The notes under the pieces are model-generated. The model was given only the letters and a program-made list of their open reading frames with translations. It did no database searches and was not told the DNA's origin. From NCBI GenBank assembly GCA_008330645.1, contig VLTN01000008.1:186001-250000 (forward strand): DNA of 64,000 nt, written 5' to 3'. Numbering within the stretch: position 1 is the stretch's first letter; every line of letters begins with the position of its first letter. Positions 21,901 through 47,900 of this stretch are shown here, in pieces. A program made the position numbers and the translations under genes. Source of the stretch: Cafeteria roenbergensis (lineage: Eukaryota > Sar > Bigyra > Bicosoecida > Cafeteriaceae).

Positions 21901-24900
21901 AGTGGCACGCGTGCGCGGCCCCGTCCCCGACGCTGCGGCCGCGGCTGCAGCCGCCAGGGGCGGCACAGAGGCCGCCAGCGCGCCGGCCGGGGCAGTCCCG
22001 TTCCCCGTGAGCTTGAGGCAGGCTCGCGTGGCCGCGACGCTGGTCCCGTTCCGAGCGTGGGCGGCCATCGCAAGAGCGGAGCGGTTCGGGAGGCGGCTTG
22101 GGACTCGGCTTGGGTTCCCGTCGCAAATGCCCCTGACCTCGGCCGTGCTGCTGCGCGATGCGCCAGCAGAGGCGGAGGAGGACGAGGTGGCGGAGGCGGA
22201 TGGCGGCGCCAGCAGGGCTGGCGACGGAGCTGGGCAGGGCAGCGCCGCCGTGCAGGCCGACGCAGCAGGCACCGGGGCCGCAGCGGCCAGGCCCGTGTCC
22301 CCCGCCAGTAGCGCGGGCAGCCGTGGACAGTCTCTGGCCCGCCGCCCTCGCCGCCCGGCTCGGGACGCCGTTTCCGGCCGGCGCGCGCTCCGGGCTGCTG
22401 CGGCTGGCATCGCGGAGCTTCTGGACGAAGACGGCTCCCCCATCGACGTCTATGCTTTGCGGGAGCCGTGGGTGGCCAGCGCGGCGGCGGCGGCGCTCAA
22501 AACAGGCGCGACGGACGTGTGTGCCGGGATGCCCCGCCTGCAGCCTCTGCTGCTCCCGCTGCTCTCCCATGCATCGCGCGTCGACCTGGCTCTCGCCGAC
22601 TCCGCCCACACCGCGCTGCGCAGGGGCATGCTGGCCGCCCGGCGCCGGGCTGTGGGCCCGGTGGCCTTTCTTGACGATTCGGGCGCGGCCACCGAGCTGT
22701 ACGACACCGTCTCGCGTCAGGCGGCGCGCCAGGCAGCCTCCGCGCTGACGTCGACGAGGCAGGCCCTGCAAGAGTCAGGGGCCGGCCCCTCCGCCGTGGA
22801 CGCTGGCGCAGCGGTACTCAGTGCCTCCACCGCGGGCTCCGCAATGCAGCTGGCTGACAGGCGGGTTCGCGAGCATGCGGCTACGACGTTCGTCCAGTTC
22901 ATCACGCTGGTGCGCACGCGGTTTGAGGCGTGGTGCTCGTTCCGGGCGCACCGCCAGCGCGCCCGGATGGTGGAGCTGCTTCACACAGCGGCTCTGCAGC
23001 GCCGAACTCTCAGGGCGCTGCAGTACGCGACGGCCGCGAGTCTCGAGGCCCGCCTGACGCGCGAGGAGCGGCTAGCGAGGCTCAAGGCGCGCCTGGGCGA
23101 AAGGCGGCGGTCTGTGGAAATGGCGGCGGCTCCAGTGCGGGCAGCGGGCGCCACGGATCCATCTCCAGTGCGGGCAGCGGGCGCGACGGGCCCTTCTCCA
23201 AGTTCTGCGCCTGGAGACGCGGCCGGCGACACGCGTGGTCCTGAGCGCACGGACGCAGCACCCCAGCCCGCTGTGGACGAGCGGGCGGCTTGCGGGCGTG
23301 GGACCGTCTTCGCTGGCCCGGCGGGCGGGACGAGCGACGCAGACGGGGTGTCTTCTGTCGAGAGTGCAACTGTGGGTTCCACTGCGGCCGCAGCCGCCGG
23401 CGGAGCCGCAAGTGGCCGGAGATCTGGGCCCGCAGGCATCCCGCTGCCGGGCTGCAGCGACTCGAGCGCAGGTGGCCCCGGACTCGCTGAGGACACGGGG
23501 GCAGCAGCGGCAGCAGCACAAGCACCGCCCGCACCAGCAGCAGCAGCAGCACCAGCTGCTGCTGTCGGAGTGCGCGCAGTCGCTCCTAGCCGCGCAGCCA
23601 GCTCGGAGCGTCCTGCGCTGCGTGGCCCGGGCGAGGGCGTCAGCCTGCCGGGCGCGAGCTCCGGCCCTCCCCGTCAGTCGTACCCGGGGCCAGAGGCAGG
23701 GGCGAGGGAGCCGTTCAGCACCCACGCAACCACGGGCTCGGGCGGCGCGCAAGCCAGCTCCGCTCTGGACGCCCTGGACTCGCCCGAGGCTTCTGGTGCG
23801 GCATTCCAGCCCGGGAGCGGGGCTTCAACAGCGGGCGGGGGCGCTGCCCCCGCAAGCACAGCAGCCTTCGACGAAGCTGCAACCGTCCTTGGCGCAGTCG
23901 GCGATGAGGCTGCAGCGACAGACGGCACGCTCTCTGGCCCGCAGATCGCGCTTCCGAACCCAGCCGCCGCCGGAGATCCGGCCATGGCGACAGCAGCGCC
24001 GTCCGGCCCCGCGATCGCTCGAGGCGTTTCCTTCGCGGGCGAGGTGCACCAAATCCCGGAGCAGAGCCCAATCCCGGACGAGGGGGGCGGAGAGGGCCCG
24101 TGGCTGGCTGCAGGGTCGGGCTCGTCGGGCGGGCGCGAGCGTCCCGCGAGCGCCAGGGCTGGCGCTGAGCGTCAGCTGGCGGTGAGCAAGGGGGCAGCCG
24201 CGCGTCGCCGCGCGTCGGTGAGCACGGACCCGACGCTGCTGCACCAACAGATCGCGCAGATGAGGCTCAAGCACGCGCCGCTGCAGGCTCGCGTGCAGGT
24301 GCAAGAGCAGACGGAGGGCTCCAACGGCATCTGGGGGCGCTGGGAGGCCCGGGCGTCGGGCGAGATGGACTATCGCATCGAGCAGGCGCGCCTCGAAGCA
24401 GCGAGGCGGCAGGCCGAGGCTGAGGCGAGGGCGGCTCGCAACGGCGGAATCGGCGAAACGGACGCCCTGATGGTGGAGCGCGCTCGCCTGCTCCACGACG
24501 CTATGTGCAAGGGGTACGATTGGCTCTACCACCTGCGGGACCTGCGCTGGCGCATGCTGTGCTTCAACAGGCTGCGGCTCTGCGTCCGGGACAAGGTGGG
24601 CATCCGGCTCGGCAACCGGGCGAGGCTGCGGCGGTGGCTGCGCATTTGCGCGCGCCTCAACTGGATTCGCCGCAACGCGGCGGCCTTTCGCGCCAGGTGG
24701 ATGGTGATGCGGACGTTCTTGGCGCTGGCGGAGGCCAGGCGCATCTCCAGGACGGTCGGGACGCCGGGGCAGTGGGAGGCTAACAGGAGGCGCAAGCAGC
24801 GCCAGGCAGCCCTGTCGCGACTCATCGAGGACCTGCCCCGGCCGGAGGCCGAGGTGGTGATTGCCTCTGCGAGAGGGCAGTTCCTGCTGTGGCGCGAGCG

Positions 24901-27900
24901 TGCGGGGCGCCAGCGGGCGCGGCAGGACTTGCTTGACGGCTTCGCGCGCATGGCTCGCGTGCGGCGGCTCCGTCAAGCGTTCTGCGCCCTGGCGCTGGTG
25001 CGGGAGGCGGCGGCTCTCGGCAAGCCAGTCATGCCGATGCCAGCGTTGACTGACGCGCCCTCGCCTGCCCCGGACGCCGCCGCAGGGCCAGCCGCCCGAA
25101 GCGGCGGCGAATCGGCCCCCTCCCGGTCCAAGCCCCCTAGGGGCGTGGCCCCCGTGGCGGACATGCGTCGGGTCGTCTTCGTGGCCCCGGAGCTGCGCTG
25201 GCTCTACCCTGCCCTGATGGCTGCGCACTGGCCGGCTCTGCCAGACCGCTCGTTGCCCCGCCACTCGGCGACAGCGTCGCTCAAAGAGTCGCTCAGAGTG
25301 CTTCGGATCAGGGACAGGAGGGGCGAGCGAGCAGCCCGCACTGGTCCTGTGGTGGTGGTCGGCGCGCCGCTTGGCCCCGTGGGCCTGCGGGCGGCCGTCG
25401 ACCTGGACACGCTTCGGCGCACCATGTTCGAGACGGCTCTTCCGGAGCGACTTCACACTTCGTGGCTGATGCAGAACCTGGACACGGCGCGGCGGGCCCG
25501 GCTGCGCGAGGCGGCGGCGCGCGAGCGAAGGATGCGTGTCGCCGCGATTCACGCCGCGGCTGGCGCCGCCGAGGCCAGGGAGGCCGAGGAGGCCGCGGAT
25601 GAGGCAGCCGACGAGGCAGAGGCTGCCAACGCGAGCGCCTTGGCCGCTCACGCGTCCTCGCAGAGCCTGATTCCGACGTCGCCCGAGGCGGCAACGGGGA
25701 GCGCGGGCTTGGAGTCCGGCGGCCAAGACGCCGCGGCCGCCGCCCCAGACTCCGGCGGTGCACTGGTGCCAGCAGCTCTGCCGTCGCTTGCGGTGCGGGG
25801 GGTGGACGATCGGACGACGCGGCGGCTGGCAGCGCGCAAGTCCACCCGCGCCGTGCTGGGGGGCGAAGCAGCCTCCGCCTGGGACAGCATCATTCCAGAG
25901 CCCACGTCGGGCGGGGTGTCGCTCATCGACAGGCTGCCCCCCCCGCTGCCTGCTGTCGTTGGCGGCTCGCTGTCGTTCCCCGAGGCGGTCGACGTCCTGG
26001 ACGCGTCGCTCCGCAGCACTCTGGCCGTCGAGCGGAAGCTGGTGGCCGTCGCGGCAGCAGAGCGCGCCACGGTGGCCAGAGGCGGCGCGCGGTGCCATGG
26101 GCCCGCCACCAAGCCCATTGCGGCAACCCTTCCCTTTGCAGAGGCGTGCGCGGCAGACGAGTCGATTTGGGGGCTCATTGCGCAAGTGGGGAAGGATGGC
26201 TCGGTTGCGTCGCTCGGTCTATTGTTTGGCCGTGGCGTGAACCGACTGATGGCGCGCCCCCTGGGCAGGCGCGATGCCGCCGATGCAGGCGACGCCAGTG
26301 TCGGCCGGCTTCGCAAGGGCTCCGGTGGTGAGCCCGCACCAGCCGCCGCTGCTTCGGCGGGAGGACAGAGGTCGCCTGGCCGCGCAGTCACGCAGGAACG
26401 GGCTGCATCCCCAGGCTTTCGAGGCGGGACCGCGTCCCCGCCGGCTTCCCGCCGGGAGCGAGGCGAGCCCGACGGGTTCCTCGGCGCCGGCGCCGGTGCA
26501 GGCGCAGGCGAGGCCATCGCTGCGGTGCGGCCCACAGCGGCCTCTCTCGCACTGGCAGCGGCGGCTGCGTCGACGGCGTTGCACCCTATGGCCGGCCTGG
26601 CGCTCACAGCGCGGCTTGAGGACGACGCGGCAATGGCGCGCGTCGCCATTGAAACGGGCGCAAGCATCGGGCTGGGGCGGCAGCAGCCGCAGGCGGTGGA
26701 GGCCAGCCTGGACGGCCACACTCTGGCAGGGCTGCGAGCGGCGCAGCTGGCGGCCGCGGTCGAGGCCGTGCCGCCGCGGTGGGTCGGCGCTGAGGCGTCG
26801 GGCATGCTGCTGCGAGCCAGCCGGCTGCACGGCAGGGGGGCCACGCCGCAGTTGCGAGCGGAAGCGGCCGAGGCAGGCAAGCGGGCCAGCGCCTGGGAGG
26901 CGGCGCTGATCAGCGCGACGGCGTCATTCAGAAGCGGATCAGCCAGGGCCCGACAGGACGCCGCGGACGCCATGCGGGCGGCGACAGGCGAGTCCGAGGA
27001 GGCAGGCTCCCATCGAGGGCGGCCAGGCGGCGAGGGCGGTGTCGCAGGCCCCGCGACCGTGCGCATGCTCGCTCTGCTTCGGGACGAGGACGCGTGCGCG
27101 CTCGTGGCGGCCGTTACCCCTGAGAACATTCTAAGGGTGTGCCTGCTCACGGACAGGGGGCGAGTGACACCGTGGCTGGGCACGGCCCCCGGGGGCAGGC
27201 TGGTGGTTCTCGGGGACCCACGGCCGTTTCTGCAGGCAGCCGCAGCGTCAATGCGCGGGGAGCAGCAGCCCCGAGACACGGCACAGCCGGGCAGTAAGGG
27301 CGGGGCTGGGCGCCACCTCGCCGGTCTGTTCGGCACCGCGTCGCGCCTTGGCGGGCTTCAGTCGCTCGGCGCCGTTACGCGGCTGACCACCCGCCGATCC
27401 CAGCTGGCCGGGTGCTGGCCCCACGAGTCCTTGCCGCCGTGGAGACGCGGAGTGGCCGCGTGGCGGCGCGAAGCTGTGGGTCTGGTCCAGCGGGCGCTGG
27501 CCCCAGCCGCAGCGGGCGCCAAAGCTCGCGGGGGGGGCGTATCCGCGGCAAGCAACAACGAGCCAAGCGTGCCTCCGCAGGGTTTCGGGTCGATGTCGGC
27601 CCGCGAGCTGGAGGCGCTGCCCAGCCGGTCCAAGCGCGTGCTGGCCTCCAGAAGCCGGGGCCTGCTGGAAGCTGCCGCTCGAGCAGCGGCCACCGATCCA
27701 CGGCTTGCGTTGGCGCTGGGCGACGCAGTTGCCAGCGTTCGTGTTGACGACGCGGTGGTGGTGGTCGAGGAGCCGTCTGCCGTGTGGGACTCGCCTTCCT
27801 TGGACGCTGCCGTTGCCACCTCCGAGTCCCGGGCCAAGCCGCAGTCTGCCGCATCGCGCGTGCGCTGGGGTACGCCCATGCGCCTGGACAAGGCTGGTGG

Positions 27901-30571
27901 GCGGGCATCTCCGGGGGCTGGCCCTGTCAACGGACGAGCAGGCGGCGAGGCGGCGGGAAGTGGCACGAGCAAGTCTCCAGAACGAGACGAAGGTGTTCCG
28001 GGCGGCCGCCCACGAGCTGGTGCAGCGGTGGCGTCATCGCCAGCTGCCGAATCGGTGGCTCCAGCCCCTCACACCACCAGCGATGGCTATGGTGGCGGTG
28101 GCGACGGCAGGCCCAATCCCCGCCCGTCAGATCGCGCAGTGCTTGCCCTGCAGCCCGGCCAAGCGGACGCCCTGGCCTTGTCCGGGACCCGCTTGGATTC
28201 GCCAGCGCCGCCAGCGGCCCGAGCGGCCGCTGCCTCGCCGACGCGATCGGAGAGCGCCGACTGGACGGCCGGCCCGAGAAGGCTTGCACCGCCCGGCGGG
28301 CGGGAAGCCAAGCCTTCGCCGGACAAGCCTGTCTGCGGCACGGCGCCTCAGCCCGGCGCGCCTGCGCCTCACGTCGAGAAGCGGTCCGCGGAGACGAGGG
28401 GGCGGGACCGCTCGGGCGGACTTGCTGCCTCGCTGCGGCGATTCAGCGCGCTGGGTCTGCCAGCGCTGTACGGTCTCGGGTCCGACCCGTTCCTCGTCGG
28501 CTGGCACTCCGGTGAGATGGGCGGCTCTGGGGCGCGGCCCCGGTCCGTGTCTGAGCGACGCCGCAGCGTGGTGGGGCCTGCGGGAGCCCTGGCCCTGCCT
28601 CCCCTGGGGCAGAGGCGGCCCGCCACGCCGGCGGACCGCGCCAAAGAGAGAGAGTGGCGGCGGCTGCGGAGGTCGCTGAGGCGCGCGAGGGCGCCTCTCA
28701 TTTCGCGCGGGGAGCGCTCGGAGGTGCTGGCCGGGTGCCAGATTGACGAGGACGGCCGCCAGGAGACCCCGCTTGCCAAGGGGGCGGCGGCCGAGGCAGA
28801 GGCTTCCCTGAGCCCGTCTCTTCGAGCCGCGCTGGCGGCATGCGTTGCAGAGCGACAGGCGGTGGTGGCCGCAGCGTCGAAGCGCGCAAACGATCTGGCT
28901 TTCCGCCTCGTCGCCCTCCGGGAAATCGGAGTCGGGCCGGCCGTGACGCGAGCGTTTGCGGAAACGCCAGTCGGGGGCCACAACCAGGCCCTGCTGGGGG
29001 GTGAGGCCGATGCCGCATCGCTTCGCCCCCTCAGCAGCAAGCGGCTACGGGGCGCGCTGGGGTCGCGGTTCGTGGCTTTCGGCATCGCGCGGTGGCTGCT
29101 GCGCGCGCTGTGCCACGGAATTACAACGGAGGGGGGTGCGGGACCTCAGCCTGGCGAGGCCTCGGACCAGCAGTCAAGCCATGCAATCTGGGGCAGGCAT
29201 GTGGAGGACGATGGGGGGTCGGGAAGCGACTCGAGCAACTTCGACGACAGCGAGGACGACAGCGGGGACGAGGCCGAGGGCGTCTTGCAGGCCGAAGCAG
29301 GGCCGGCGGCTCTCGCGCCCGCGGTGTGGCAGGCGTGCGTGGGGGCAGCTATGGCGGTCTACATGCCAGAGGGCGCAACCGCAGTGTCGGCCGAGACCAG
29401 ACAGCTGGCCGCGGCCGCAGCTCTTGCCGTTTCGCGGGCGGCGTCAACAACCTTGGGGCTTCGCGTTGCCGTGCCGCGCGAGCTGGTGCTCGCCGCGAAG
29501 CCGCCAGCTCCTCCGGCGGCCAAACTCAGGGGGGCCGGGCGCCACCGGGGCCGGATGGCTGCGCCCCCCGGAACGAGAGTCGGGACGCAGGGCGCCACGA
29601 CGAGTTCGGCCCCAGCTTCAAGCGCCACCTTCCCAGCCGAGTCGACGCCGACGTCCGACGACGAGGCCGACACCACCCCGCCGGCCCTTGAGGAGGCGGA
29701 GGAGGAGGGGGAGGGGGAGCACTCGTCAGTGGGCGCCGAAGCGGACCAGGCGCAAGGCCCCGCCGGGGAGGAAGGCGCCGGGCCACAGCTGACCCACGCG
29801 CAGCGGGCCGCGCGGGCATCGGAGCTCCTTTCGGCATCGCGAGCGCTGGCCCGCAAGGCCCGAAGCCTGTTGCTCAGGGGCCGGGCGGTGGTGTGTGCTG
29901 CTGGCGAGGGCTCTGGCGCGACGTCAACTCTCGATGTGTTCACGGCTGTGACGGGGAGCGATGCGGAGGTGAGAGCAAGGGGAGCTCTGCTTGCAGCAGG
30001 GGTGGACCAGCAGCGCGCCTCAGCCAGGCTGCGCCGCCTGGCATCCGCGCTGGAGCGCGCAGCAGTCCTCGGTGGCCCGTCTCTGCCTCCCCGGGCTGTT
30101 TGGAGGCGCGGGTTCGAAGACAGCGTGCTGGCCAGGCAAGCTTCAGGGCAGGCAGCCCCGCAGGGGGAAGGCTCTCTCGTTGGCGTTGGCGCGTCTGAGC
30201 TGAGCGGTGCAGGGTCCATGGAAGCACGGAGGGCTGCTGTGCTAGAGCTTCGCCAGGGCCGGCGCATCGGCATGCCGGGCCGACGTCGAATCATGCTTGC
30301 GGCACGTGTAGCTGCTCAAAGGGTACGGTACTTTGGGCAGGGGGCCGCTGCGGAGACGACTGGGGCAACGAGCGTCGGCAAGCCGCGTCTTGAACCTCTG
30401 GGCTGGGGATCCGACGAAGCCGAGGACGAGCTGGGCGACTCCGGCCAGGCAGGCAAGCAGCAGCCTGGCGACGGCGCGAAGCAATCAGCGGCCGGGACTG
30501 CCCTTGGCGGGCTAGCGCGTACGTTTGAAAGCTACAGACGGCCTGGGGTGCTCCGCATGTTCCGTGGCTGA
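18968..30571 (+). CDS. Giant IQ/Sfi1-like Trp-Arg-rich repeat protein
   Basis: A single uninterrupted ORF of 3,868 codons gives 3,867 residues; 18968 is the first ATG. Long Ala/Gly/Ser/Pro-rich linkers alternate with helical, basic, Trp- and Phe-rich blocks. The first (about residues 800-930) opens with an IQ motif ([15 protein letters not shown]) and continues with units such as [38 protein letters not shown] and [13 protein letters not shown]. Further blocks lie near 1298-1365 ([17 protein letters not shown]), 1841-1930 ([17 protein letters not shown]) and 1968-2015 ([17 protein letters not shown]). Spaced Trp/Arg helices like these resemble Sfi1 repeats, which bind centrins along basal-body and centrosome fibres; the IQ motif suggests calmodulin or centrin too. 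The C-terminal third has no visible domain. The call is by pattern only. The absence of introns over 11.6 kb is striking beside its neighbours. Confidence 0.6.
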
Positions 30572-30860: not shown

Positions 30861-32482
30861 ATGTCAGAGCTCAAGGTCGGCAAGAAGTACCGCGTGGTCA
30901 AGAAGATCGGCGCCGGCTCGTTCGGCGACATCTATCTGGGCATCAACGACTCGACAAAGGAGGAAGTCGGTGAGCGCGGCGCGCTTGACCGCTTGCGCGG
31001 CTGGCTCAGGCTCTCGCTGGACCAACTGCCCCCGTCCCCTCTCCAGCCCTCCCCCCTCCCGCCCCGCCCCGCAGCCATGAAGCTCGAGTCTACCAAGAGC
31101 AAGCACCCGCAGCTCATCTACGAGGCCAAGCTGTACCGCATCCTCCAGGGCGCCGTGGGTGAGACATTTTTGGCTTGACGCTCTTTTTGGGGGGCTGCTT
31201 CAGCGCCGGCTACGCCAAAAGTTCGCGCGTTGGCGCCCCTCCGCCCCTGACCCGCTTCCGCCCCGCTCTCCTGGCTCTCCGCAGGCGTTCCCTACATCCG
31301 CTGGTACGGAGTGGAGGTGAGCCCCGCGACGCCGGCGAAGCTGCGCGGCCGTGGGAGAAGAAACTGCCACTGCGCCAGTCTGGGCGCGATTCGTTGGAGT
31401 GGGACGGTTCTCTGTGCTGCAATCGGCGCCTTTGTCGTGCCCGCAAGGGCACCCTGGGCTCTGAACCCCAACCGAACCGAGTGCCCGCCTCGAAGGCGGG
31501 GCACGCGCAGCAGCAGGAGGCATCAGCCCCACCCTCCCGGCTCCTGCCGCAGGCGTTTTCTGGTCCGAAGGCGCCGCCCGCGTTCATCGTGTCGACCTCC
31601 CCCCCGCTTCCTCCCTTACCCCTGCCTCCCCCTCCCCCTTCGCTGCGCCCGCAGACCTTCCCCCAGGGCTCCTTCAATGTCCTTGTCATGGACCTTCTGG
31701 GAGAGTCCCTCGAAGACCTGTTCAACCGATGCGGCCGCCGCTTCTCGCTCAAGACCGTGTTGATGATCGCCGACCAGGTGCTGCTCCGCCTCGAGTACAT
31801 CCACTCCAAGTCGTTCATCCACCGCGATATCAAGCCCGACAACTTCCTCATCGGGCGTGGCCGCCGCTCGAACATCATCTACGTGATCGACTTTGGCCTG
31901 GCCAAGCGCTACCGCGATCCCAAGACGCACGTGCACATCATGTACCGCGAGAACAAGCACCTCACGGGCACGCCGCGCTACGCCTCCATCAACAACCACC
32001 TCGGCATCGAGCAGTCGCGCCGGGATGACCTCGAGTCGCTCGGGTACGTATTCATGTACTTCCTGCGCGGCTCTCTGCCGTGGCAGGGCCTTCGTGCGAA
32101 CACGAAGAAGCAGAAGTACCAGAAGATCATGGAGAAGAAGATGGCGACGCCTGTGGACCTGCTGTGCAAGGGCTTCCCGGACGAGTTCCGCATCTACTTC
32201 GAGTACTGCCGCGCGCTGCGGTTCGCGGACAAGCCGGACTACTCGTACCTTCGCCGTCTGTTCAAGGACCTTGCGCTCCGCAACGAGATCGAGTACGACG
32301 GCAACTTCGACTGGCGTGCCTCGGAGAGCGCTCCTGCCGCGCGCTCGTCGCGCACTGCCGCCGCTGGCGCGGCCGCTGCCGCTGGTGGGACGGGCACCGG
32401 CACTGGCACTGGCCGTGCGGCGGCTCCGGCCGGCGCCCCCGGCGCTGCGGGGGCCTCTGGCTACGCTGAGGGCGCCTACTGA
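30861..32482 (+). CDS. CSNK1: Casein kinase 1, copy 1
   Basis: Exons 30861-30969, 31075-31158, 31285-31316 and 31655-32482 encode 350 residues. Order of motifs: Gly-rich loop [15 protein letters not shown] with the ATP-binding Lys, [10 protein letters not shown], catalytic [10 protein letters not shown], metal-binding DFG in [12 protein letters not shown], and the CK1-specific SIN sequence ([20 protein letters not shown]) that replaces APE of other kinases. TKKQKYQKI is the conserved basic motif linked to nuclear and centrosomal targeting in CK1 delta/epsilon. The catalytic domain fills about residues 1-297. The tail is Ala/Gly/Thr-rich, without clear autoinhibitory sites. CK1 enzymes phosphorylate pre-primed Ser/Thr and occur in axonemes, centrosomes and nuclei. 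All donors are GTGAG, and exon 3 is only 32 nt. Intron 3 (338 bp) contains a pyrimidine-rich tract. Confidence 0.96.
31645..32316 (+). repeat. Homogenised segment, CK1 copy 1 (partner 33846-34517)
   Basis: A 672-bp block from just before the last acceptor to codon FDWR aligns without gaps to 33846-34517. By eye there are only about ten base differences, while flanking intron, upstream exons and tails are diverged. Confidence 0.85.
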
Positions 32483-33419: not shown

Positions 33420-34611
33420 ATGGAGCTCCGTGTGGGCAAAAAGTTCAGGCTGGGCAAGAAGATCGGCTCCGGGTCGTTTGGAGACATTTACCTGGGCACC
33501 AATGTCTCAACCGGCGAGGAGGTGGGCATGAAGATGGAGTCAACCAAGACGAAGCACCCGCAACTGGTTTACGAGGCCAAGCTTTACAGGCTCCTGCAAG
33601 GGGCGGTTGGTGAGGCAGTGCACATGAGCGGGCGCTGACGGCACGGCAAGCACGGCAAGCTCCGGACCCCGTACCCACGCCGACCGCGTCGCCTCTTTGG
33701 CGCCGGCCTGACCCCTCGCAGGGATTCCCTACATTCGCTGGTATGGCGTTGAGGTAAGAGCTCAATTGTAGGGCCTGGGTGGCGGCTAAGAATTCAGAGC
33801 TGGCCTTGCTGAGCCACTTGTACCAATGTCCGGTCGTGCTCCCTCGCGCCCGCAGACCTTCCCCCAGGGCTCCTTCAATGTCCTTGTCATGGACCTTCTG
33901 GGCTACTCCCTCGAAGACCTGTTCAACCGATGCGGCCGCCGCTTCTCGCTCAAGACCGTGTTGATGATCGCCGACCAGGTGCTGCTCCGCCTCGAGTACA
34001 CCCACTCCAAGTCGTTCATCCACCGCGATATCAAGCCCGACAACTTCCTCATCGGGCTTGGCCGCCGCTCGAACATCATCTACGTGATCGACTTTGGCCT
34101 GGCCAAGCGCTACCGCGATCCCAAGACGCACGTGCACATCATGTACCGCGAGAACAAGCACCTCACGGGCACGCCGCGCTACGCCTCCATCAACAACCAC
34201 CTCGGCATCGAGCAGTCGCGCCGGGATGACCTCGAGTCGCTCGGATACATGTTTTTGTACTTCCTGCGCGGCTCTCTGCCGTGGCAGGGCCTTCGTGCGA
34301 ACACGAAGAAGCAGAAGTACCAGAAGATCATGGAGAAGAAGATGGCGACGCCTGTGGACCTGCTGTGCAAGGGCTTCCCGGACGAGTTCCGCATCTACTT
34401 CGAGTACTGCCGCGCGCTGCGGTTCGCGGACAAGCCGGACTACTCGTACCTTCGCCGTCTGTTCAAGGACCTTGCGCTCCGCAACGAGATCGAGTACGAC
34501 GGCAACTTCGACTGGCGCACTCTGGGAGCCGCAGCTGAAGACTCCCCAGCAGGAGAGCCCACAAGGCCTGGTGATGAAGCAGCGGCTGCGGGTGCGGCTG
34601 GAGCAGAGTGA
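33420..34611 (+). CDS. CSNK1: Casein kinase 1, copy 2
   Basis: Exons 33420-33609, 33722-33753 and 33856-34611 encode 325 residues. It has the same catalytic motifs as copy 1: [31 protein letters not shown] and the SIN sequence. Two differences stand out. The first intron of copy 1 is absent (codon 37 lies mid-exon), and the residue there is Gly, giving VGMK instead of VAMK two residues before the ATP-binding Lys. The last catalytic exon is nearly identical to copy 1 at DNA level, whereas exons 1-2 and the tails are clearly diverged. The tail is short and acidic/Gly-Ala-rich ([12 protein letters not shown]). The start at 33420 aligns with the family N-terminus; an in-frame ATG at 33309 would add 37 unlikely residues. 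It converges with the STPGP array gene, 115 bp apart. Confidence 0.95.
33846..34517 (+). repeat. Homogenised segment, CK1 copy 2 (partner 31645-32316)
   Basis: This is the partner of the copy 1 block, of equal length and about 98-99% identical by eye. Identity stops abruptly at the same codon (FDWR) in both copies. Confidence 0.85.
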
Positions 34612-34726: not shown

Positions 34727-37700
34727 TCAGCGGCCACGCATGGTGAAGGCAGGTGCTGAGCCATCCTGCCCAAGGTAGTATCCCGGTCCGTACGCACCCG
34801 GACCCGGAGTGTCGGAATGTTTAGAACTGTCCCTGGCGCCAGAGCCGAGCCCGTACGCCGGCGCGGACGCCTGACGAGACCCAGGCTGACGACCGAAGCC
34901 GCTGCCCGCACCGTACTGGCCTGCGATCCAACGCACACGCCCCGCACGACACCACAACATCACAACGTCGGACTACGACCCGACCCCTCCCCGACCATGC
35001 ACCGGCGACCCCAACGCGCGACACAGCCCCCCACCCGCCCAGCACGACATGCACTCACCGGGACCCGGCGTGTCCGACGGACGGCCGTCGCCGCGCTCCG
35101 CCGTGCCGAACTTGGCACCGCCGGCCGACCGGTGAGTGTCCGGGGCGCCGTACGCTCCCGGGCCCGGAGTGTCGGAGCGGCTAGGGCTGTCCCGGGCGCC
35201 AGAGCCGAGCCCGTACGCCGGCGCGGACGCCTGACGAGACCCAGGCTGACGACCGAAGCCGCTGCCCGCACCGTACTGGCCTGCGATCCAACGCACACGC
35301 CCCGCACGACACCACAACATCACAACGTCGGACTACGACCCGACCCCTCCCCGACCACGCACCGGCGACCCCAACGCGCGACACAGCCCCCCACCCGCCC
35401 AGCACGACATGCACTCACCGGGACCCGGCGTGTCCGACGGACGGCCGTCGCCGCGCTCCGCCGTGCCGAACTTGGCACCGCCGGCCGACCGCCGAGTGCT
35501 GACCGCCTGCCGGCCCATCGAGTCCGGCGCGCCGTACGCTCCCGGACCGGGGGCGCCGTCGCCGCGCCGCGGGCTGTCGCGCGGAGCCGAGCCGAGCCCG
35601 TACGCCGGCGCGGACGCCTGACGAGACCCAGGCTGACGACCGAAGCCGCTGCCCGCACCGTACTGGCCTGCGATCCAACGCACACGCCCCGCACGACACC
35701 ACAACATCACAACGTCGGACTACGACCCGACCCCTCCCCGACCACGCACCGGCGACCCCAACGCGCGACACAGCCCCCCACCCGCCCAGCACGACATGCA
35801 CTCACCGGGACCCGGCGTGTCCGACGGACGGCCGTCGCCGCGCTCCGCCGTGCCGAACTTGGCACCGCCGGCCGACCGCCGAGTGCTGACCGCCTGCCGG
35901 CCCATCGAGTCCGGCGCGCCGTACGCTCCCGGACCGGGGGCGCCGTCGCCGCGCCGCGGGCTGTCGCGCGGAGCCGAGCCGAGCCCGTACGCCGGCGCGG
36001 ACGCCTGACGAGACCCAGGCTGACGACCGAAGCCGCTGCCCGCACCGTACTGGCCTGCGATCCAACGCACACGCCCCGCACGACACCACAACATCACAAC
36101 GTCGGACTACGACCCGACCCCTCCCCGACCACGCACCGGCGACCCCAACGCGCGACACAGCCCCCCCCCGCCCAGCACGACATGCACTCACCGGGACCCG
36201 GCGTGTCCGACGGACGGCCGTCGCCGCGCTCCGCCGTGCCGAACTTGGCACCGCCGGCCGACCGGTGAGTGTCCGGGGCGCCGTACGCACCCGGGCCCGG
36301 AGTGTCGGAGCGGCTAGGGCTGTCCCGGGCGCCAGAGCCGAGCCCGTACGCCGGCGCGGACGCCTGACGAGACCCAGGCTGACGACCGAAGCCGCTGCCC
36401 GCACCGTACTGGCCTGCGATCCAACGCACACGCCCCGCACGACACCACAACATCACAACGTCGGACTACGACCCGACCCCTCCCCGACCATGCACCGGCG
36501 ACCCCAACGCGCGACACAGCCCCCACCCGCACAGCACGACATGCACTCACCGGGACCCGGCGTGTCCGACGGACGGCCGTCGCCGCGCTCCGCCGTGCCG
36601 AACTTGGCACCGCCGGCCGACCGCCGAGTGCTGACCGCCTGCCGGCCCATCGAGTCCGGCGCGCCGTACGCTCCCGGACCGGGGGCGCCGTCGCCGCGCC
36701 GCGGGCTGTCGCGCGGAGCCGAGCCGAGCCCGTACGCCGGCGCGGACGCCTGACGAGACCCAGGCTGACGACCGAAGCCGCTGCCCGCACCGTACTGGCC
36801 TGCGATCCAACGCACACGCCCCGCACGACACCACAACATCACAACGTCGGACTACGACCCGACCCCTCCCCGACCACGCACCGGCGACCCCAACGCGCGA
36901 CACAGCCCCCCACCCGCCCAGCACGATATGCACTCACCGGGACCCGGCGTGTCCGACGGACGGCCGTCGCCGCGCTCCGCCGTGCCGAACTTGGCACCGC
37001 CGGCCGACCGCCGAGTGCTGACCGCCTGCCGGCCCATCGAGTCCGGCGCGCCGTACGCTCCCGGACCGGGGGCGCCGTCGCCGCGCCGCGGGCTGTCGCG
37101 CGGAGCCGAGCCGAGCCCGTACGCCGGCGCGGACGCCTGACGAGACCCAGGCTGACGACCGAAGCCGCTGCCCGCACCGTACTGGCCTGCGATCCAACGC
37201 ACACGCCCCGTACGACACCACAACATCACAACGTCGGACTACGACCCGACCCCTCCCCGACCATGCACCGGCGACCCCAACGCGCGACACAGCCCCCCAC
37301 CCGCCCAGCACGACATGCACTCACCGGGACCCGGCGTGTCCGACGGACGGCCGTCGCCGCGCTCCGCCGTGCCGAACTTGGCACCGCCGGCCGACCGCCG
37401 AGTGCTGACCGCCTGCTGGCCCATCGAGTCCGGCGCGCCGTACGCACCCGGGCCCGGAGTGTCGGAGCGGCTAGGGCTGTCCCGGGCGCCAGAGCCGAGC
37501 CCGTACGCCGGCGCGGACGCCTGACGAGACCCAGGCTGACGACCGAAGCCGCTGCCCGCACCGTACTGGCCTGCGATCCAACGCACACGCCCCGCACGAC
37601 ACCACAACATCACAACGTCGGACTACGACCCGACCCCTCCCCGACCACGCACCGGCGACCCCAACGCGCGACACAGCCCCCCACCCGCACAGCACGACAT

Positions 37701-40700
37701 GCACTCACCGGGACCCGGCGTGTCCGACGGACGGCCGTCGCCGCGCTCCGCCGTGCCGAACTTGGCACCGCCGGCCGACCGCCGAGTGCTGACCGCCTGC
37801 TGGCCCATCGAGTCCGGCGCGCCGTACGCACCCGGGCCCGGAGTGTCGGAGCGGCTAGGGCTGTCCCGGGCGCCAGAGCCGAGCCCGTACGCCGGCGCGG
37901 ACGCCTGACGAGACCCAGGCTGACGACCGAAGCCGCTGCCCGCACCGTACTGGCCTGCGATCCAACGCACACGCCCCGCACGACACCACAACATCACAAC
38001 GTCGGACTACGACCCGACCCCTCCCCGACCATGTACCGGCGACCCCAACGCGCGACACAGCCCCCCACCCGCACAGCACGACATGCACTCACCGGGACCC
38101 GGCGTGTCCGACGGACGGCCGTCGCCGCGCTCCGCCGTGCCGAACTTGGCACCGCCGGCCGACCGCCGAGTGCTGACCGCCTGCTGGCCCATCGAGTCCG
38201 GCGCGCCGTACGCACCCGGGCCCGGAGTGTCGGAGCGGCTAGGGCTGTCCCGGGCGCCAGAGCCGAGCCCGTACGCTGGCGCGGACGCCTGACGAGACCC
38301 AGGCTGACGACCGAAGCCGCTGCCCGCACCGTACTGGCCTGCGATCCAACGCACACGCCCCGCACGACACCACAACATCACAGCGTCGGACTACGACCCG
38401 ACCCCTCCCCGACCATGCACCGGCGACCCCAACGCGCGACACAGCCCCCCCCGCCCAGCACGATATGCACTCACCGGGACCCGGCGTGTCCGACGGACGG
38501 CCGTCGCCGCGCTCCGCCGTGCCGAACTTGGCACCGCCGGCCGACCGCCGAGTGCTGACCGCCTGCCGGCCCATCGAGTCCGGCGCGCCGTACGCTCCCG
38601 GACCGGGGGCGCCGTCGCCGCGCCGCGGGCTGTCGCGCGGAGCCGAGCCGAGCCCGTACGCCGGCGCGGACGCCTGACGAGACCCAGGCTGACGACCGAA
38701 GCCGCTGCCCGCACCGTACTGGCCTGCGATCCAACGCACACGCCCCGCACGACACCACAACATCACAACGTCGGACTACGACCCGACCCCTCCCCGACCA
38801 TGCACCGGCGACCCCAACGCGCGACACAGCCCCCCACCCGCCCAGCACGACATGCACTCACCAGGACCCGGCGTGTCCGACGGACGGCCGTCGCCGCGCT
38901 CCGCCGTGCCGAACTTGGCACCGCCGGCCGACCGCCGAGTGCTGACCGCCTGCCGGCCCATCGAGTCTGGCGCGCCGTACGCTCCCGGACCGGGGGCGCC
39001 GTCGCCGCGCCGCGGGCTGTCGCGCGGAGCCGAGCCGAGCCCGTACGCCGGCGCGGACGCCTGACGAGACCCAGGCTGACGACCGAAGCCGCTGCCCGCA
39101 CCGTACTGGCCTGCGATCCAACGCACACGCCCCGCACGACACCACAACATCACAACGTCGGACTACGACCCGACCCCTCCCCGACCATGTACCGGCGACC
39201 CCAACGCGCGACACAGCCCCCCCCCACCCGCACAGCACGACATGCACTCACCGGGACCCGGCGTGTCCGACGGACGGCCGTCGCCGCGCTCCGCCGTGCC
39301 GAACTTGGCACCGCCGGCCGACCGCCGAGTGCTGACCGCCTGCCGGCCCATCGAGTCCGGCGCGCCGTACGCTCCCGGACCGGGGGCGCCGTCGCCGCGC
39401 CGCGGGCTGTCGCGCGGAGCCGAGCCGAGCCCGTACGCCGGCGCGGACGCCTGACGAGACCCAGGCTGACGACCGAAGCCGCTGCCCGCACCGTACTGGC
39501 CTGCGATCCAACGCACACGCCCCGCACGACACCACAACATCACAACGTCGGACTACGACCCGACCCCTCCCCGACCACGCACCGGCGACCCCAACGCGCG
39601 ACACAGCCCCCCACCCGCACAGCACGACATGCACTCACCGGGACCCGGCGTGTCCGACGGACGGCCGTCGCCGCGCTCCGCCGTGCCGAACTTGGCACCG
39701 CCGGCCGACCGGTGAGTGTCCGGGGCGCCGTACGCACCCGGGCCCGGAGTGTCGGAGCGGCTAGGGCTGTCCCGGGCGCCAGAGCCGAGCCCGTACGCCG
39801 GCGCGGACGCCTGACGAGACCCAGGCTGACGACCGAAGCCGCTGCCCGCACCGTACTGGCCTGCGATCCAACGCACACGCCCCGCACGACACCACAACAT
39901 CACAACGTCGGACTACGACCCGACCCCTCCCCGACCACGCACCGGCGACCCCAACGCGCGACACAGCCCCCCACCCGCCCAGCACGACATGCACTCACCG
40001 GGACCCGGCGTGTCCGACGGACGGCCGTCGCCGCGCTCCGCCGTGCCGAACTTGGCACCGCCGGCCGACCGCCGAGTGCTGACCGCCTGCCGGCCCATCG
40101 AGTCCGGCGCGCCGTACGCTCCCGGACCGGGGGCGCCGTCGCCGCGCCGCGGGCTGTCGCGCGGAGCCGAGCCGAGCCCGTACGCCGGCGCGGACGCCTG
40201 ACGAGACCCAGGCTGACGACCGAAGCCGCTGCCCGCACCGTACTGGCCTGCGATCCAACGCACACGCCCCGCACGACACCACAACATCACAACGTCGGAC
40301 TACGACCCGACCCCTCCCCGACCACGCACCGGCGACCCCAACGCGCGACACAGCCCCCCCCCACCCGCCCAGCACGATATGCACTCACCGGGACCCGGCG
40401 TGTCCGACGGACGGCCGTCGCCGCGCTCCGCCGTGCCGAACTTGGCACCGCCGGCCGACGGGTGAGTGTCCGGGGCGCCGTACGCTCCCGGACCGGGGGC
40501 GTCGTCGCCGCGCCGCGGGCTGTCGCGCGGAGCCGAGCCGAGTCCGTACGCCGGCGAGGACAGCTGACGGGACCCAGGCTGACGACCGAAGCCGCTGCCG
40601 GAGCCGTACTGGCCTGCGAACGGACGAAAGTCATCGTTGTCGCCACTCGCCACATTCTGTCACGCGAGGGGTGAGCTTGATCTGCCGGGGTGTGCTTTGC

Positions 40701-41595
40701 TCGCACTTCATGCTCTTCGCTGCTTGCTACGCTTACCTGGACCCGGTGTGTCAGACGGCCTGTCAGGCGATCGTTGTGCTGTTCCAAATCTGGCTCCTGC
40801 TGACTTTGGCCTCTCAGCAACGCTGTAGGCTCCAGGGCCTGGACTTTCGTCCTTGCTTTCGCACGCCCCCCTTGGGGTGCTCCGAAGCCCAAAGGCTGGG
40901 GCGGTGATTCGGGTTGATGCCGACTGCCGTCCGAATCCGCTGGGCGATCTGTACTCGCCAGGGCCTGCGCGCTTGCAGTGCGGGAGCGACAACATCTGCC
41001 GGCATTCGTCAGTGGCGCCTTGGCAGGCCGCTCGCAAGTCAGGGACAACAGAAAACAACAATCACCATGGACGACGGAACCGCCTGGGCTCACCTGGCCC
41101 GTCCGGCCTGGTCGGCACGTCTCGAGGAGAGGTGCCGAACGAAGGCGTTGCTGAGCTCCTGAACTTGGAGCTATAACGGATCTTGCCGTACATCTGGCCA
41201 TCCGCTGTGCTCCCGGGCCCGGGGGTATCTGCGAACAGGGCATGCCGGGAAGAAGATAGCTGGCAGCCAGGCAGTCGGCACAGCGCAGGGCGGCTTGAAA
41301 AATGTGCCAGACCGAGCGCCGTCTCGACGTTGACGTTGCCGCGCGCTTCCACACGGCCCAGGCGCGTCAAAGCACCCCATCCGCCTGGGTGCTCACCATT
41401 CTTTATATGCTCTTCACGCTGGGACGTGCCAAACACATATGACGGGGCCGTGATCTTGGTGGAGAGCGGCTGCTTTCCGACCGCGTCGCCGTGCGGGTGG
41501 TACACCGGCCCCGGCCCCGGTGGCGAGAGAGCCCGCTCGAACGGCGCCTGCTTCAAGGATGTGCACAGCTGCCCAGCAGTGCGGGAAGGGTCCAT
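34727..41595 (-). CDS. STPGP-repeat (CIMAP/ODF3/SHIPPO-like) protein with multiplied exons
   Basis: Start is ATG 41595. Unique 5' exons are 41595-41397, 41228-41094 and 40964-40737. Then come 16 related exons: 40613-40389, 40247-39999, 39860-39639, 39500-39252, 39110-38862, 38723-38475, 38338-38093, 37954-37709, 37570-37325, 37186-36938, 36799-36551, 36413-36192, 36054-35806, 35667-35419, 35280-35059 and terminal 34920-34727. All introns are phase 1, so whole-exon gain or loss keeps frame. The product is about 1,458 residues. Each full exon encodes 74-83 residues with two Pro-Gly-Pro motifs (DTPGPGAYGAP or GAPGPGAYGAP, and SDTPGPG) and the phrases GSGFGRQPGSRQ and AKFGTAERGDGRPS. STPGPxY proteins line axonemal or sperm-tail microtubules. 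The 5' exons carry diverged versions (SPPGPGPVYHP, PGPGEYRSPSGFG). The last exon ends AFTMRGR. Confidence 0.88.
34921..40388 (-). repeat. Tandem exon+intron array, periods about 360-387 bp
   Basis: Fourteen full exon units, bounded by the terminal exon and the 5'-most unit, are separated by near-identical introns of about 138 bp. Exon types by length: A 222 nt, B 249 nt and C 246 nt. In transcript order from 40247 they run B A B B B C C C B B A B B A. Introns differ by few bases (for example a C-run length and a CACGCACC/CATGCACC/CATGTACC variant), so amplification is recent or homogenised. Confidence 0.92.
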
Positions 41596-41940: not shown

Positions 41941-44900
41941 TCAGCATCGCCCGGTCTCATCAGCTGGCTGCAGCATGATGGGGAACGGGCCCAGGGCCGG
42001 AGCCGCGAGCGGAGCCTGGTCTCTCACAACGCGCCATTGCATCAGCGACTGGTCGGCACCTCCCATGGAGAAAAGGTGGCCACCGTCGCATGCAAACGCG
42101 AGCCTTTGCACAGGACTGCAATGGGCACGGCTGACGCGAGGCAGAGCGTCCTTGTACGCAGCCGGGTATCGCATCAGCAGCAGTCTGCCGCTGGTGTCGC
42201 CCGCCACGATGAGCTCCTTGAACGGGTCGGTGCAGGCCGAGATCACGTCGCAGTCGGCCATGTCAGCAAGCAGTGGGCCACGGCGGCCCCGTGGCGGGGG
42301 AGCAGGCGCCCATGCGGCTTGCGCCGCCCAGCCGGCAGGCAGAGACCAAGTGCTCCACTCGGCGTCACGCAGCTCGGACGGATGAGGAACCTCCTCTCCG
42401 CTGGCAGCGGACAAGAACAAAAGCTGGCCTTCGCTGTCGTTTGCCTGCAGAAACTGGCCTGTCGCGTCAAAGTCCAAGGCCACCACTCGTCCAGCGCATG
42501 CCTCGCTCACAGCCCTGAGCTCGACCGAGGCCAGTGCCGTTGGACCCTTGCCCTCCGAAGTCACGGAGAACAAGTACACCTTGGAATCGTACGACCCTAC
42601 AGCGAGCATGCTGCCATCGGGCGAAAAAGCCAGCACGCCGACAGGCAGATGGGACTCCCTGCCGTGGAAGAGTACACGGAGCGTCGAGGCGTCGAGCACC
42701 AGCAGCACGCCATCCTGTGCCCCGGCGCCTGCGCTCGAGCCCTCGCCCCACCTTGCGCCCATGCCGACGGCAAGCAAGGTCCCGTCGGGCGACCAAGCCA
42801 CGGCGCGCGCCGGCCCCGGGAGCGCCACGGACGAGAGCTCCACGCGGCGACTGCGGGACCAGAGCCTCAGCTTGGCGTCATCGCCAGCCGTCGCCACAAG
42901 ATCAGGCTCGGTTGGATGGGGTGCCAAGCCGCGAGCCTCCCACCCCGCATGGCTGGACACCAACCGCGAGCAAGATACGTCATCCAGGAAGCGCCGCCGC
43001 TGCCGGTTCGCGCCGCCCATCCGAGCTTCCAAGGCGCTAGGCTGCGCGTCCCCACCCGCCCCAACAACCACAGGGTTCTTCAGCTGCTCCGCCGCCTCGA
43101 TGCTTCTGCCGTGGCACCCGCCGCTGGGCCGCGCGAGCTGAAATACCTCGCCTCCAGCAGTGCCAACCGCCACGACAGCCCTCTGCAGGTCCTGCGAAAT
43201 GCACACCGCACGCACGGACGAGTCCGTGGGCACAGGCGACGCGATGCCCCCCAGGCGAACGCTTGTCAGAGCGGCGAGCTCGGCCCCGCCTGGGCCACCA
43301 GCCCAGAGGAGCACGCGCCCGTCCCGTCCGCCCGTGGCGAGCAAATCTCCTGTAGAGTGCATGCAGGTGACTGGGCCGTCGTGGCCCGGCAGCGACCGCA
43401 CACACCGACCGTCGCGCCACTCCAGCAGCTTGCCAGATGCAGTCCCGGTGACAAGGCGCCGGTCCACGACGGCGGCTGTTGTCAGCGGCTGCCTCTGACC
43501 GGCAGGCTCAAATGTCGCTGACCACCGCCGCACCGCCGAGTCGCCGATGCGCAGCAAGCAGAGGAACCCGTCACCTCCCACCGCGAGGTGCGCTCCGCGG
43601 TTCCGAGTGCCCGCGCAAAATGCTGCGAACGCAACCGCGGCAGCCCCCACGCTTGCAGTCGCCACCAGGTGGGCGTCGCCATCCCAGCGCCCACCAGTGC
43701 TCTCCCACAACACCAGGCGATGCTCAGGGTCGCTCCCCACGGTTGCAAGAAGGCAGCGGCCGTCAACACTGGCGCCCAGCCCTGCGTCTGGGCCAGCGCC
43801 ATTGGCACCACCCAAGCCCACGACTCGGGGGAACGGGCCTCGTGCGCCGACCGCCTGCTCAGCCCCTCCACCTGCTGCGCTGCGGGATCGGGCGCGTTGA
43901 GCTGCGCCTTTCGCGATGCTCTCAGCTGCAGACACAAGCCGGTGGCGAGCTCCGGGCGCCAGAGCACCGCCCGCCAGGCCCAGGCCCGTCGGCGCGGCCG
44001 CGGCCATGGCGCCGTCACTGCCCAGTCCGTCTGCCCCGCTGCCGCCTGACGCCGCAGCATCGAGGCCTGGCCGCTTGAAGGGCGCAAAGGCCGCTGCTGC
44101 CACGCCGTGCGAGTGCGCCGCTGGCAGCACGCACAGGCACCGCCCCTCGGCATCGGGGTCCCACAACACCAGCACTGGCCGAGGCGCTCTGCGAATCGCG
44201 TCTGGCCCTGCCTGAGGACGCGCCGTGTGTCGAGCAGTGGCCGCTCTGCTGCCGGTGGCGTCTGCCCCGTCGACGGGCGGCGCCGTGGCAGCCATGGCGG
44301 CCCCAGTCTCGGCAAGCAGCCGCGCGGAAGCCGGGTTGCCGAACGACGCAGCGGCGACCGCGCGGCCCTCCGCAGGGGTGACAGCAGCCGCGGGGTCCAC
44401 AGCACAGACGCTGAGTGCTACGCGCCCGGAGTGCGACATCACCAGGCCGGTGACTTCGGCGCCCATGGCTGGGCCAAACGTCTGAGACTGCGACTGCGTG
44501 TCGAGGGCAATGCTGAGGCCCGCTGCCGGGTAGACCACGCGCCCCGCCGCGCTGTACCACACGTTTCCGCGGAGCCCGTGCGTGCCGCTGTATCCGTGGA
44601 CCCACTCCAGGCGGAGGTACGCCGCGGGGGGCTCAGGCGGGGGTCGCAAAGCGCTGCTGGGCGCCACAATGGAGGACACCCACGCCCGGGGGCGCCGTCG
44701 CCTGCGCGCGGCGAGCCGGGTGTGACCCCCTGCCCGAATGAGCTGCTCTTCCCCTGCAGGCTCTGCCTCGTGGTCTTCGTAGTCGCGGGCGCGGGTCGCC
44801 CGGCACACGGCCTGGCCAGCCTGCCAAACGTCAGCGCCAGCCGCACTGGCAGCATCGCCCCACAAACGGCCGCTCGCCGGCAGCGGAGCCCCTGCAGCCT

Positions 44901-47900
44901 CCGCGCGTGGGCCAAGGCCGTCGGCGTCCTCGTCGACGACGACGGCCTTGCCAGTGGCTGCCTCTCCAGCACCCAGGGCCTTGTGCGGCGAGGCTGCGAC
45001 GCCTGACTCGGCAGACAGAGCCGCGCCCGCGTCTCCAGGGAAGCACACCCGCCACACGGTGAGCGCGCGGTCGCGAGCGCCCAATGTGACCAAGGCCCTG
45101 CCACCCGCCACCCATGCCAGCGCCCCCACGGGCCCTGCATGGGCCCCGTCCGCCACAACCGAAACCATGTCGCGCGGGGCCGTGGCTGCAGCCGCAAGAG
45201 GTGCGGCTCCCGCTGCCGGCTCTGCCGGGGCGAGGTCCGACGGCCCGGCTGGCTCTCCGGAGAGCAGCAGCATCGCCCTTCCCGCTGTTCGCATTGCCCC
45301 TGTTCCAGCTGCGAAGTCCACACTGCAGAGCTGGGGGTCGCTCGGCGCAGCCCTGCCGATGCCAAGATGGGCGGAGGTGCTGCTCCCGGCGCCGACTCCA
45401 AACGCTCCGACTGTCGCCCCTTCCGCGGACAGCTGCGCTCCGCTGAGGCCGCTGGTCCCGCCGGGGCCCTTGGTGATGTCGATGGACTCGGCGTCGTCGT
45501 CGGCCCCGCTGCCGTAGGCCGCCGGGCCTGAAGCGGCGGCGCCGCTCAAGTCCACCGTCAGCGGAGCAAGGCCAGACCCGGCGCCTCCGGCCGCCGCGGC
45601 ACCGGAGAGCGGCGGCGTGGCTGCCAACGCGCGCGACGTGGACCCGCTGGGCCTCCCCACGGCCTCGGCCTCGGAGAGCGCGCCAGCAGTGTGGGCCGGG
45701 CTTGTGGCCGCCAGCACGGACTCGGGACGCACGCACGGGTACGGCCAGAGCCGTAGGCGGCCGTCTCGGCCCGCGGTCGCGAGCAGGGCGCCGGTGGCGC
45801 GGCTGCCGCCGGCGGCCCCCGCAAGAGTCGCCAGCACCTCAGCCTCGCGGTCGACGAACCCGGCGGCGGCGCTCCTGCCCCCCTCCCCCTTGTCCGTTGC
45901 GATTCTGTGGAGAGCGCGGGCGAGCGTCCACGCGGCCCTGACAGCGTCTTTCCACCCGGGCAGTGGCGCCCCCACGGCCAGCGGCGCGCCGAACGCCCCA
46001 ACGCCCGCAGGGGCTCGTTCCACGCACAGCGGGGCCGCAGCGCCGCCGTCGTGAGTTCGCGGCCATGCGCCGTCCACATCCATGCCCCACGGAGTGGAAG
46101 TCGTCTGCCAGGGCGTTGCGGCCGCGTCAGCCGCAGCAACCGCCTCTCCGGTTCCGCCTTGGCAGTACGCAACGTTTCCGGCGACATCGGCCGAGCGCAG
46201 AACGCGGCCGTCGCATGAGAAGTCGAGCGAGGCGATGGCCCGTCCGTGGCGCGTTGCGATGCCCCGCACCTCCCAGCCGAGCCCGCCCTCTCCCGCCGCC
46301 GCCGCTCGCTCCAGGTGCGCCCCGACAGCAGCGCCCGCGTCGTCACCGCCACCGCCGCCGCCACCGCCGCCGCCGCCGCCGTCGATGCCCCGTGTGTCGT
46401 AGAGGAACACCTGGCCGTCGGCCGCCCCCACAGCGAGCACCGTCCCGTCGGGGCTGAACCGCAGGGCCGTGACGGCCGCCGATCCGTCGCGGCAACGGTG
46501 CACGACCGCCATGTCACTCGACCTCATTGCGACCACCGTGCCGTCCCGCCGAAGGCGCTCGTCGCGCGTGCCCTCGTCGCCGCCGCCCAGCCCCGCCACC
46601 AGCACGTCCCCGCTGGGGTGGAACGCCAGGGCGCGGCACGTGCCGTCCACGTCCGCCGATGCCACCAAGGCGCGAGCTTCAATGTCCCAAACACGCACCG
46701 TGCCGTCGTCGCCGCCAGTGGCCACGATTGCCTCTGTCGGGTGTGCCGCCAGCCCCCGCGCCTCCCCCGTGAAGTGGCCTTGCGTCACCGGCCCCTCCCC
46801 GCCCGAGGAGCCTGTCTGCTCCCACGTGGTGTTTTCGCCGTCAGCCAGCCTGACCTCGAAAATCTCCCCGCCGGCTGTCCCGATGAGAGCCCGCGCGCCC
46901 CCGCTGTCCAGGGCCGCGTCGAAGTCGCCCTCGCCTCGGCCACCGGCGCCGGCCTGCGGCCCGCCCACGGGAACCACCTCTCCCTTGGCGGTCAGCACCG
47001 GACCCGAAACAAAGTCTACCGACCTCACTGCCGGGACGAGGCACTGCGGCAGCCTCGAGACGTCGACCTGGCAGAGCAGCCCCAAGCCGCCGTCCCACAC
47101 CTTCACAAGGCCGTCAGCGCCCCCGGTGATGAGCCCACCCGGTGCCCCTCCGAGGGCCGCATCTCCTGGCGCCGACCTGCCGTGGGACCCCTGCGCTGGC
47201 CGTGCGCACGCGCAGTACACCGCGCCCCTGTGCGCCTCGATGGCCTCAACAGCGCGCACTCCCTCGAAGCGGAGAAGCTGCCCGGACGCGGTTCCCACGA
47301 CCGCTTCGGACCCGACCCACCCGGCGCACAGCACGTCCTCCCATGCCGCTCCGGTGGCATCCCCCAGCACGGCAGGGCGCCGGCAGAAGCCCCTTCCGTC
47401 GAGCGTGAGGAAGGAGCAGTGCCGCCTCCCCGCCACCAGCACTCCCTCCCCGCCGGGCGACCACTCCAGGCAAAACACGCGGCGGTGGTGCGTCGTGGAG
47501 GAGGCCACCACCTCGCCCGTCCGCCAGTCGTGGACCACCACTCTGTGGCGCGCGTCCAGCCCAACGGACGCGACGAGCGGCGCCGAGCGGCGCCCCTCCG
47601 AGTGCGGGCGGAACGCCACGTGCGAGACTCCGGCGTGGTGGCACGACGACAGCACCTTGATGGTCTGACCGCGGCCGCCCGACCCCTCGGGCGCCCACAC
47701 CCGCACAGCCGCCGCACGCTCGCGCGCGCCGCTGGCGATGACAACCCTGCCGGTCGCGGGGTCCGACCCGACGGCCAGACACAAAACGGGGCCCGAGTGG
47801 CCCTGGTAGAACGCCTGGCTCCAGCCTGCGCCGTCGCGGCGCTTCCGCGCCAGGACCACGCTGCGGCCACTCGGCCACGCCGCCGCGGCGCCCACCGGCG

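Follow-up and report, generated by a model that had tools for sequence, protein, structure and literature searches.

A predicted SHIPPO-type gene of Cafeteria roenbergensis with near-identical introns and mosaic exons

A predicted 19-exon gene with an exon-intron array

We analyzed a stretch of 64,000 nucleotides of Cafeteria roenbergensis DNA (the window; positions 186,001 to 250,000 of contig VLTN01000008.1, here C8, GenBank assembly GCA_008330645.1). The species is called C. burkhardae in more recent literature, and the strain is probably BVI. Its GC content is 64-79% in 2-kb steps, and the assembly searched alongside it comprises 36,303,456 bases in 167 contigs. On the minus strand of the window lies a predicted gene of 19 exons (E1 to E19), which form a single frame of 1,458 amino acids from an ATG at 41595 to a stop codon ending at 34727. 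All 18 introns are in phase 1 in the predicted frame, the codon being split after its first base, and the 15 introns between E4 and E19 are nearly identical. This locus is probably a functional gene, in which an exon-intron unit was multiplied and the array then shuffled and homogenised; its product would be a large, basic, PG-rich microtubule-associated protein of the STPG/ODF3 (SHIPPO) type. The array had been described in an initial annotation of this DNA and was confirmed as observed: its limits (E4 from 40613, stop codon to 34727) proved exact, as did the sixteen exons of 194-249 nt (E4-E19) and the phase 1-1 pattern throughout, every array intron being in phase 1. The gene reaches further 5' than had been described, with E1-E3 predicted at 41595-40737. 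Because the mean number of introns per gene is only 1.67-1.89 across four Cafeteria strains (PMC6972860), a gene with 18 introns is unusual for Cafeteria.

The array introns all have GT...AG ends. Their reported near-identity stood, with a mean pairwise p-distance of 1.46% over the 15 introns, while the reported length of 138 nt held for ten of them; two are 141 nt, two 137 nt and one 136 nt. Tandem Repeats Finder placed the array at 35138-40619 with a period of 387, 14.4 copies, a 94% match and a score of 9400; the runner-up among the 24 rows for the window scored 135. If retained, 14 of the 15 array introns would introduce a stop codon, and the one without a stop is the 136-nt intron, whose retention would shift the frame. 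Outside the array, neither intron 2 (a score reached by 191 of 300 shuffles) nor intron 3 (Table 1) shows homology to the array intron. The local score of intron 1 against it (28) is barely over the shuffle maximum (27; n=300) and was not interpreted.

The predicted protein is 143 kDa in size with an isoelectric point of 10.5, is rich in G, A, P, S and R, and is likely extended and low-complexity. It contains 36 PGPG motifs, two of them degenerate. The remaining 34 are PGPGxY, and 30 of the 35 spacings between motifs are 41-43 residues (the other five are 32-33), which gives the ladder of PGPGxY motifs and spacers of about 40 residues that characterizes STPG1/ODF3L-type proteins. Each array exon encodes two PGPGxY motifs, mostly 41-42 residues apart, one of which is completed over the splice junction. 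The first four motifs, encoded by the non-homogenised E1-E3, are spaced 43, 42 and 42 residues. Spacings inside the array are mutual copies, so independent support comes from these first four motifs and from one paralogue on another contig (C28), whose motif spacing was 42 residues in an open-frame scan.

The N-terminal 345 and C-terminal 138 of the 1,458 amino acids were compared with Pfam. They matched SHIPPO-rpt (PF07004) at 28.4 and 22.5 bits, against a gathering cut-off of 20, and at E values up to 1 these two end stretches matched no family other than SHIPPO-rpt. A PDB sequence search with the N-terminal 345 amino acids gave a weak match to Tetrahymena STPG2 (E 0.0011), the others listed having E values of 0.78 and 0.89. 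The initial assignment to an STPGP-type protein was thus upheld, the protein being PG-rich, SHIPPO-like and above the Pfam cut-off. By analogy with its relatives, the product is probably a microtubule-binding flagellar protein.

Exon types and recombination between units

The 14 inner exons (E5-E18) fall into three types, in the order B A BBB CCC BB A BB A, as had been proposed. Type A comprises E6, E15 and E18 (222 nt), type B comprises E5, E7, E8, E9, E13, E14, E16 and E17 (249 nt), and type C comprises E10-E12 (246 nt). Identity between types is 91-98% (three representative pairs, gaps excluded). The statement that the introns are as similar as the exons held in part: they are closer to each other than most exon pairs of different type, but less close than exons of the same type. 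Among the inner exons, the differences between types are confined to alignment columns 79-175, beyond which only singletons were found, at column 61 (E10) and column 247 (E8).

Type C exons are A-like through column 127 and B-like from column 139, with the breakpoint between. E4 is the opposite recombinant, so all four combinations of front and back are present in the array. The finding of both recombinants (E4; E10-E12) bears out the suggestion that the units are mosaics generated by recombination. A four-combination test was positive for 107 of 253 informative site pairs, most of which reflect the same few block boundaries and do not count as independent.

We also compared neighbouring with distant units in the set of 14 units E5-E18, with E4 excluded. 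Over the whole unit, neighbours at lag 1 differed at 12.2 positions (permutation P 0.55), lag 3 gave P 0.54, and no signal of neighbour duplication was found at lags 1-6. The order of types contains 8 runs against 9.2 expected (P 0.31), which is no significant excess. The clustering of the three C exons is mildly unusual (P 0.03), having been examined because it was visible. Because resemblance between units does not increase with proximity, a count of separate recent duplications is unsupported, and the view that about 15 such events could be counted here was not sustained. A better fit is homogenisation through unequal crossing over or conversion, or else duplication of several units at a time with later mixing.

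The proposal that E4 and E19 are the founders is doubtful, as both might just as well be units at the edges of the array that homogenisation did not reach. A remnant of the ancestral two-motif exon is more plausibly seen in E3, which is 61-65% identical to the four array exons compared and whose following intron has no detectable similarity to those of the array. In the history proposed here, a single two-motif exon would have been multiplied along with the intron downstream of it into 15 units arranged head to tail, each made up of one of the exons E4 to E18 and the intron that follows. Unequal crossing over, gene conversion or both would later have shuffled and homogenised these units. Since every intron is in phase 1, the gain, loss or swap of whole units preserves the frame. 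The average nucleotide identity among strains is 99.05-99.67% (PMC6972860), and the divergence of introns within the array (1.5%) is on the order of the divergence between strains. The composition of the array may therefore well differ between strains, and its copy number may vary between them.

Several points weigh against a translated gene with a multiplied and homogenised array. Simple stepwise tandem duplication would predict similarity between neighbours, which is absent here. The evidence for reassortment is weaker in the introns, where all four combinations occur at two pairs of sites; one site is common to both pairs and by eye resembles a CpG transition, so that recurrent mutation is possible. 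The PDB match at E 0.0011 is to STPG2 only, with single stretches that score weakly (i-Evalue 0.59 and 9.9). The five spacings of 32-33 residues are below the published value of about 40, which is a caveat for the 8-nm reach that they would have. Splice sites and start codon are predicted, and the splicing and expression of the array gene are deduced from DNA rather than from RNA or protein. Finally, the unit count and the intron variants may hold errors, because the assembly, if it is CrBVI, was built from raw PacBio reads (PMC6972860).

This last point could be extended to the array as a whole, as an assembly from raw PacBio reads might have inflated or mis-ordered a smaller one. Polishing of CrBVI used PacBio reads first and MiSeq reads second, and redundant allelic contigs were discarded (PMC6972860), which would apply if the assembly is CrBVI, and a G-rich run differs in five of the 15 introns, as an artefact might leave it. 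However, the three exon types, the two reciprocal recombinants and several point differences between introns are scattered along the array, which simple stutter would not yield, and the reported PacBio depth for BVI is 45x (PMC6972860). We regard an assembly artefact as unlikely.

Evidence for coding constraint

Over 3,396 bases, exons of one and the same type show 4 differences, two of them in E8, and all four are synonymous. The synonymous share of sites is 28% (33% for transitions only), and the probability of four out of four by chance is about 0.6% (about 1.2% for transitions only). The lengths of the inner exons are multiples of three in 14 of 14 cases, whereas those of three of the 15 introns (136, 137 and 137 nt) are not. 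Because changes are synonymous only and divisibility by three holds for the exons and not for the introns, a constraint on a translated protein is supported, albeit by few events.

These observations also bear on whether the array could be decaying or non-expressed, its frame being kept only through recent homogenisation. High identity alone could hold the copies open for a while. The synonymous substitutions and the contrast in length between exons and introns argue against it, however, and the diverged E1-E3 and E19 are open as well. A decaying array is thus quite improbable.

Distribution of the array in the assembly

We searched the whole assembly with the DNA sequence of the array intron, by a method that passes over simple repeats and very frequent words and computes scores for the best candidates only. 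All 15 matches were within the array. The identity of the introns (98.5%) and their identical positions are what would be expected of introner-like mobile introns inserted successively into a repetitive exon. Copies of such an element would be found in many unrelated genes, whereas this intron was matched at this array only and the exons were duplicated along with the introns. An introner is therefore very improbable and was rejected as a candidate.

It is also hardly credible that the plus strand is the coding one: it has long intronless repeat open reading frames with a 129-amino-acid period, antisense over the array (483, 431 and 624 amino acids at 34817-36268, 37263-38558 and 38800-40674), a by-product of the fact that the length of most units is a multiple of three, but they lie in three different frames with no single plus frame open across the array, which argues against antisense coding, while the minus strand yields a SHIPPO-family protein with matching splice sites.

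A protein search of the assembly with one unit gave 19 matches, namely the 14 inner exons, E3, E4, E19, and one each on contigs C28 (46% identity) and C63 (38%). A search with the SHIPPO family at E values up to 1 gave 12 matches on nine contigs, seven of which were at or over the cut-off. One of the 12 was in the array gene (E3), so counts of array exons obtained in this way are lower bounds. One of 14 control genomes also matched, below the cut-off, and weak matches may be due to chance.

We examined three paralogue loci of 10 kb each on C28, C63 and C64 (L010, L030 and L031). PG-rich, SHIPPO-like open frames were found in L010 at 3691-5289 on the minus strand (533 amino acids), in L030 at 4395-5000 on the minus strand (202 amino acids) and in L031 at 3369-4892 on the plus strand (508 amino acids). 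The paralogue on C64 has three motifs with spacings of 188 and 134 residues and no ladder. These spacings were taken from a six-frame scan for PG motifs, which misses the window's own intron-split array and was used for the listed spacings only. No tandem array with a period of at least 60 was found at the three paralogue loci, nor in 17 readable 10-kb stretches of the assembly and the rest of the window. The survey of 18 stretches was non-random: two flank the window and 16 were taken at one fixed position on 16 contigs, one of the 18 (L047) consisting entirely of N.

Possible reach along the microtubule

Tetrahymena STPG1A has five PGPGxY motifs with spacers of about 40 residues; its motifs bind one tubulin after the next, the distance bridged by a spacer being 8 nm (PMC10105768). 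For two Tetrahymena ODF3L proteins with 12 motifs, a coverage of 96 nm was suggested (PMC10105768). STPG1A, STPG2 and ODF3L resemble the Cafeteria protein in their PG motifs and spacers of about 40 residues, with PGPGxY in STPG1A and ODF3L (PMC10105768). The number of motifs differs, with 5 in STPG1A and 12 in ODF3L versus 36 PGPG here, and the likeness lies in protein motifs. Tubulin binding at 8-nm steps was shown for STPG1A (PMC10105768), whereas the Cafeteria protein is a translation of genomic DNA.

By analogy with STPG1A, tubulin binding with an 8-nm step, as in STPG1/ODF3L-type proteins on the outer wedge of the doublet, may apply here. Each PGPGxY motif would then grip one tubulin dimer, each unit would extend the reach by about 16 nm, and all 36 motifs together could cover about 288 nm along a single protofilament, so that the copy number of units should set the reach of the protein along the microtubule. 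The length polymorphism and ruler function suggested in the initial annotation are plausible, judging from the 8-nm spacing of STPG1A. A more specific version is an adjustable ruler, in which a unit corresponds to two dimers or 16 nm, 288 nm corresponds to 3 x 96 nm, selection holds fitting numbers and recombination supplies variants. This is speculative and, on present grounds, unlikely. The match of 36 to 3 x 12 is weak evidence for it, since motifs are added in twos, about one in six even numbers fits, and two of the motifs are degenerate.

Relation to known arrays

Spider flagelliform silk genes have the same exon-intron array architecture. In MaSp2 genes of Argiope, repetitive exons are bounded by short, near-identical introns, with averages of 94.3-99.7% per gene, and these introns are thought to be homogenised by recombination (PMC9779670). 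The Cafeteria array, with 15 near-identical introns (1.46%) and signs of recombination, likewise belongs with iterated, homogenised exon-intron genes. Silk genes encode secreted animal fibre proteins, unlike the present gene, whose product is probably an intracellular, lattice-binding protist protein with two putative tubulin-binding motifs per exon. For copy number, a comparable case is kringle IV type 2 of human LPA, a coding repeat with 1-40 units per allele and many isoforms (PMC6314250, PMC11462820). Its unit is 5.6 kb versus about 360-390 bp here, and polymorphism has been shown in LPA, whereas one assembly is considered here.

A literature search yielded no paper uniting SHIPPO/STPGP and repeat, none that combined tandem exon duplication, introns and unequal crossing over, and no architecture closer than spider silk among the matches listed. 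The architecture is already known from silk arrays, and from LPA for copy number, and the setting is new: the published homogenised-intron arrays that we came across concern secreted animal proteins, namely silk (PMC9779670), and this one is in a protist gene. In a relative, the repeat has a physical meaning of one motif per tubulin dimer (PMC10105768), by which genomic copy number could be converted to nanometres. Four strains that differ by about 1% have been sequenced (PMC6972860), and a comparison of them would show directly whether an axonemal protein varies in its reach and is constrained in it.

Table 1 Predicted features of the array gene (positions in the window).
Feature	Position	Strand	Remark
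E1, first coding exon, one degenerate PGPG motif	41397..41595	-	predicted ATG and GT donor, phase 1
E2, one PGPG motif without Y	41094..41228	-	predicted exon
E3, diverged exon with two motifs; 61-65% identical in DNA to the four array exons compared	40737..40964	-	
Intron E3/E4, 123 nt	40614..40736	-	similarity to array intron undetectable (score 13; 227/300 shuffles as high)
E4, first array exon, B-type front and A-type back, reciprocal of type C	40389..40613	-	
Exons E5-E18 (14; B A BBB CCC BB A BB A) interleaved with 15 homogenised introns of 136-141 nt	34921..40388	-	
E10, example of a type C exon (A front, B back)	38093..38338	-	
E19, last exon, carrying the stop codon; diverged from the array, with about 85% identity to type A (E6)	34727..34920	-	

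Neighbouring genes

An open reading frame of 3,875 amino acids at 18944-30571 on the plus strand had no Pfam match at E 0.001, and no Rfam family matched the window at gathering scores. Two tandem protein kinase stretches (Pfam Pkinase), closely similar by eye, are located at 31175-32482 and about 33856-34611 on the plus strand, the second ending 115 bases from the stop codon of the array gene. By eye we take them to be casein kinase 1-like. Immediately upstream of the array gene, and sharing its strand, an open reading frame of 3,567 amino acids (41941-52644, minus strand) has EML beta-propellers and HELP motifs, and probably encodes a giant microtubule-associated EML-like protein.

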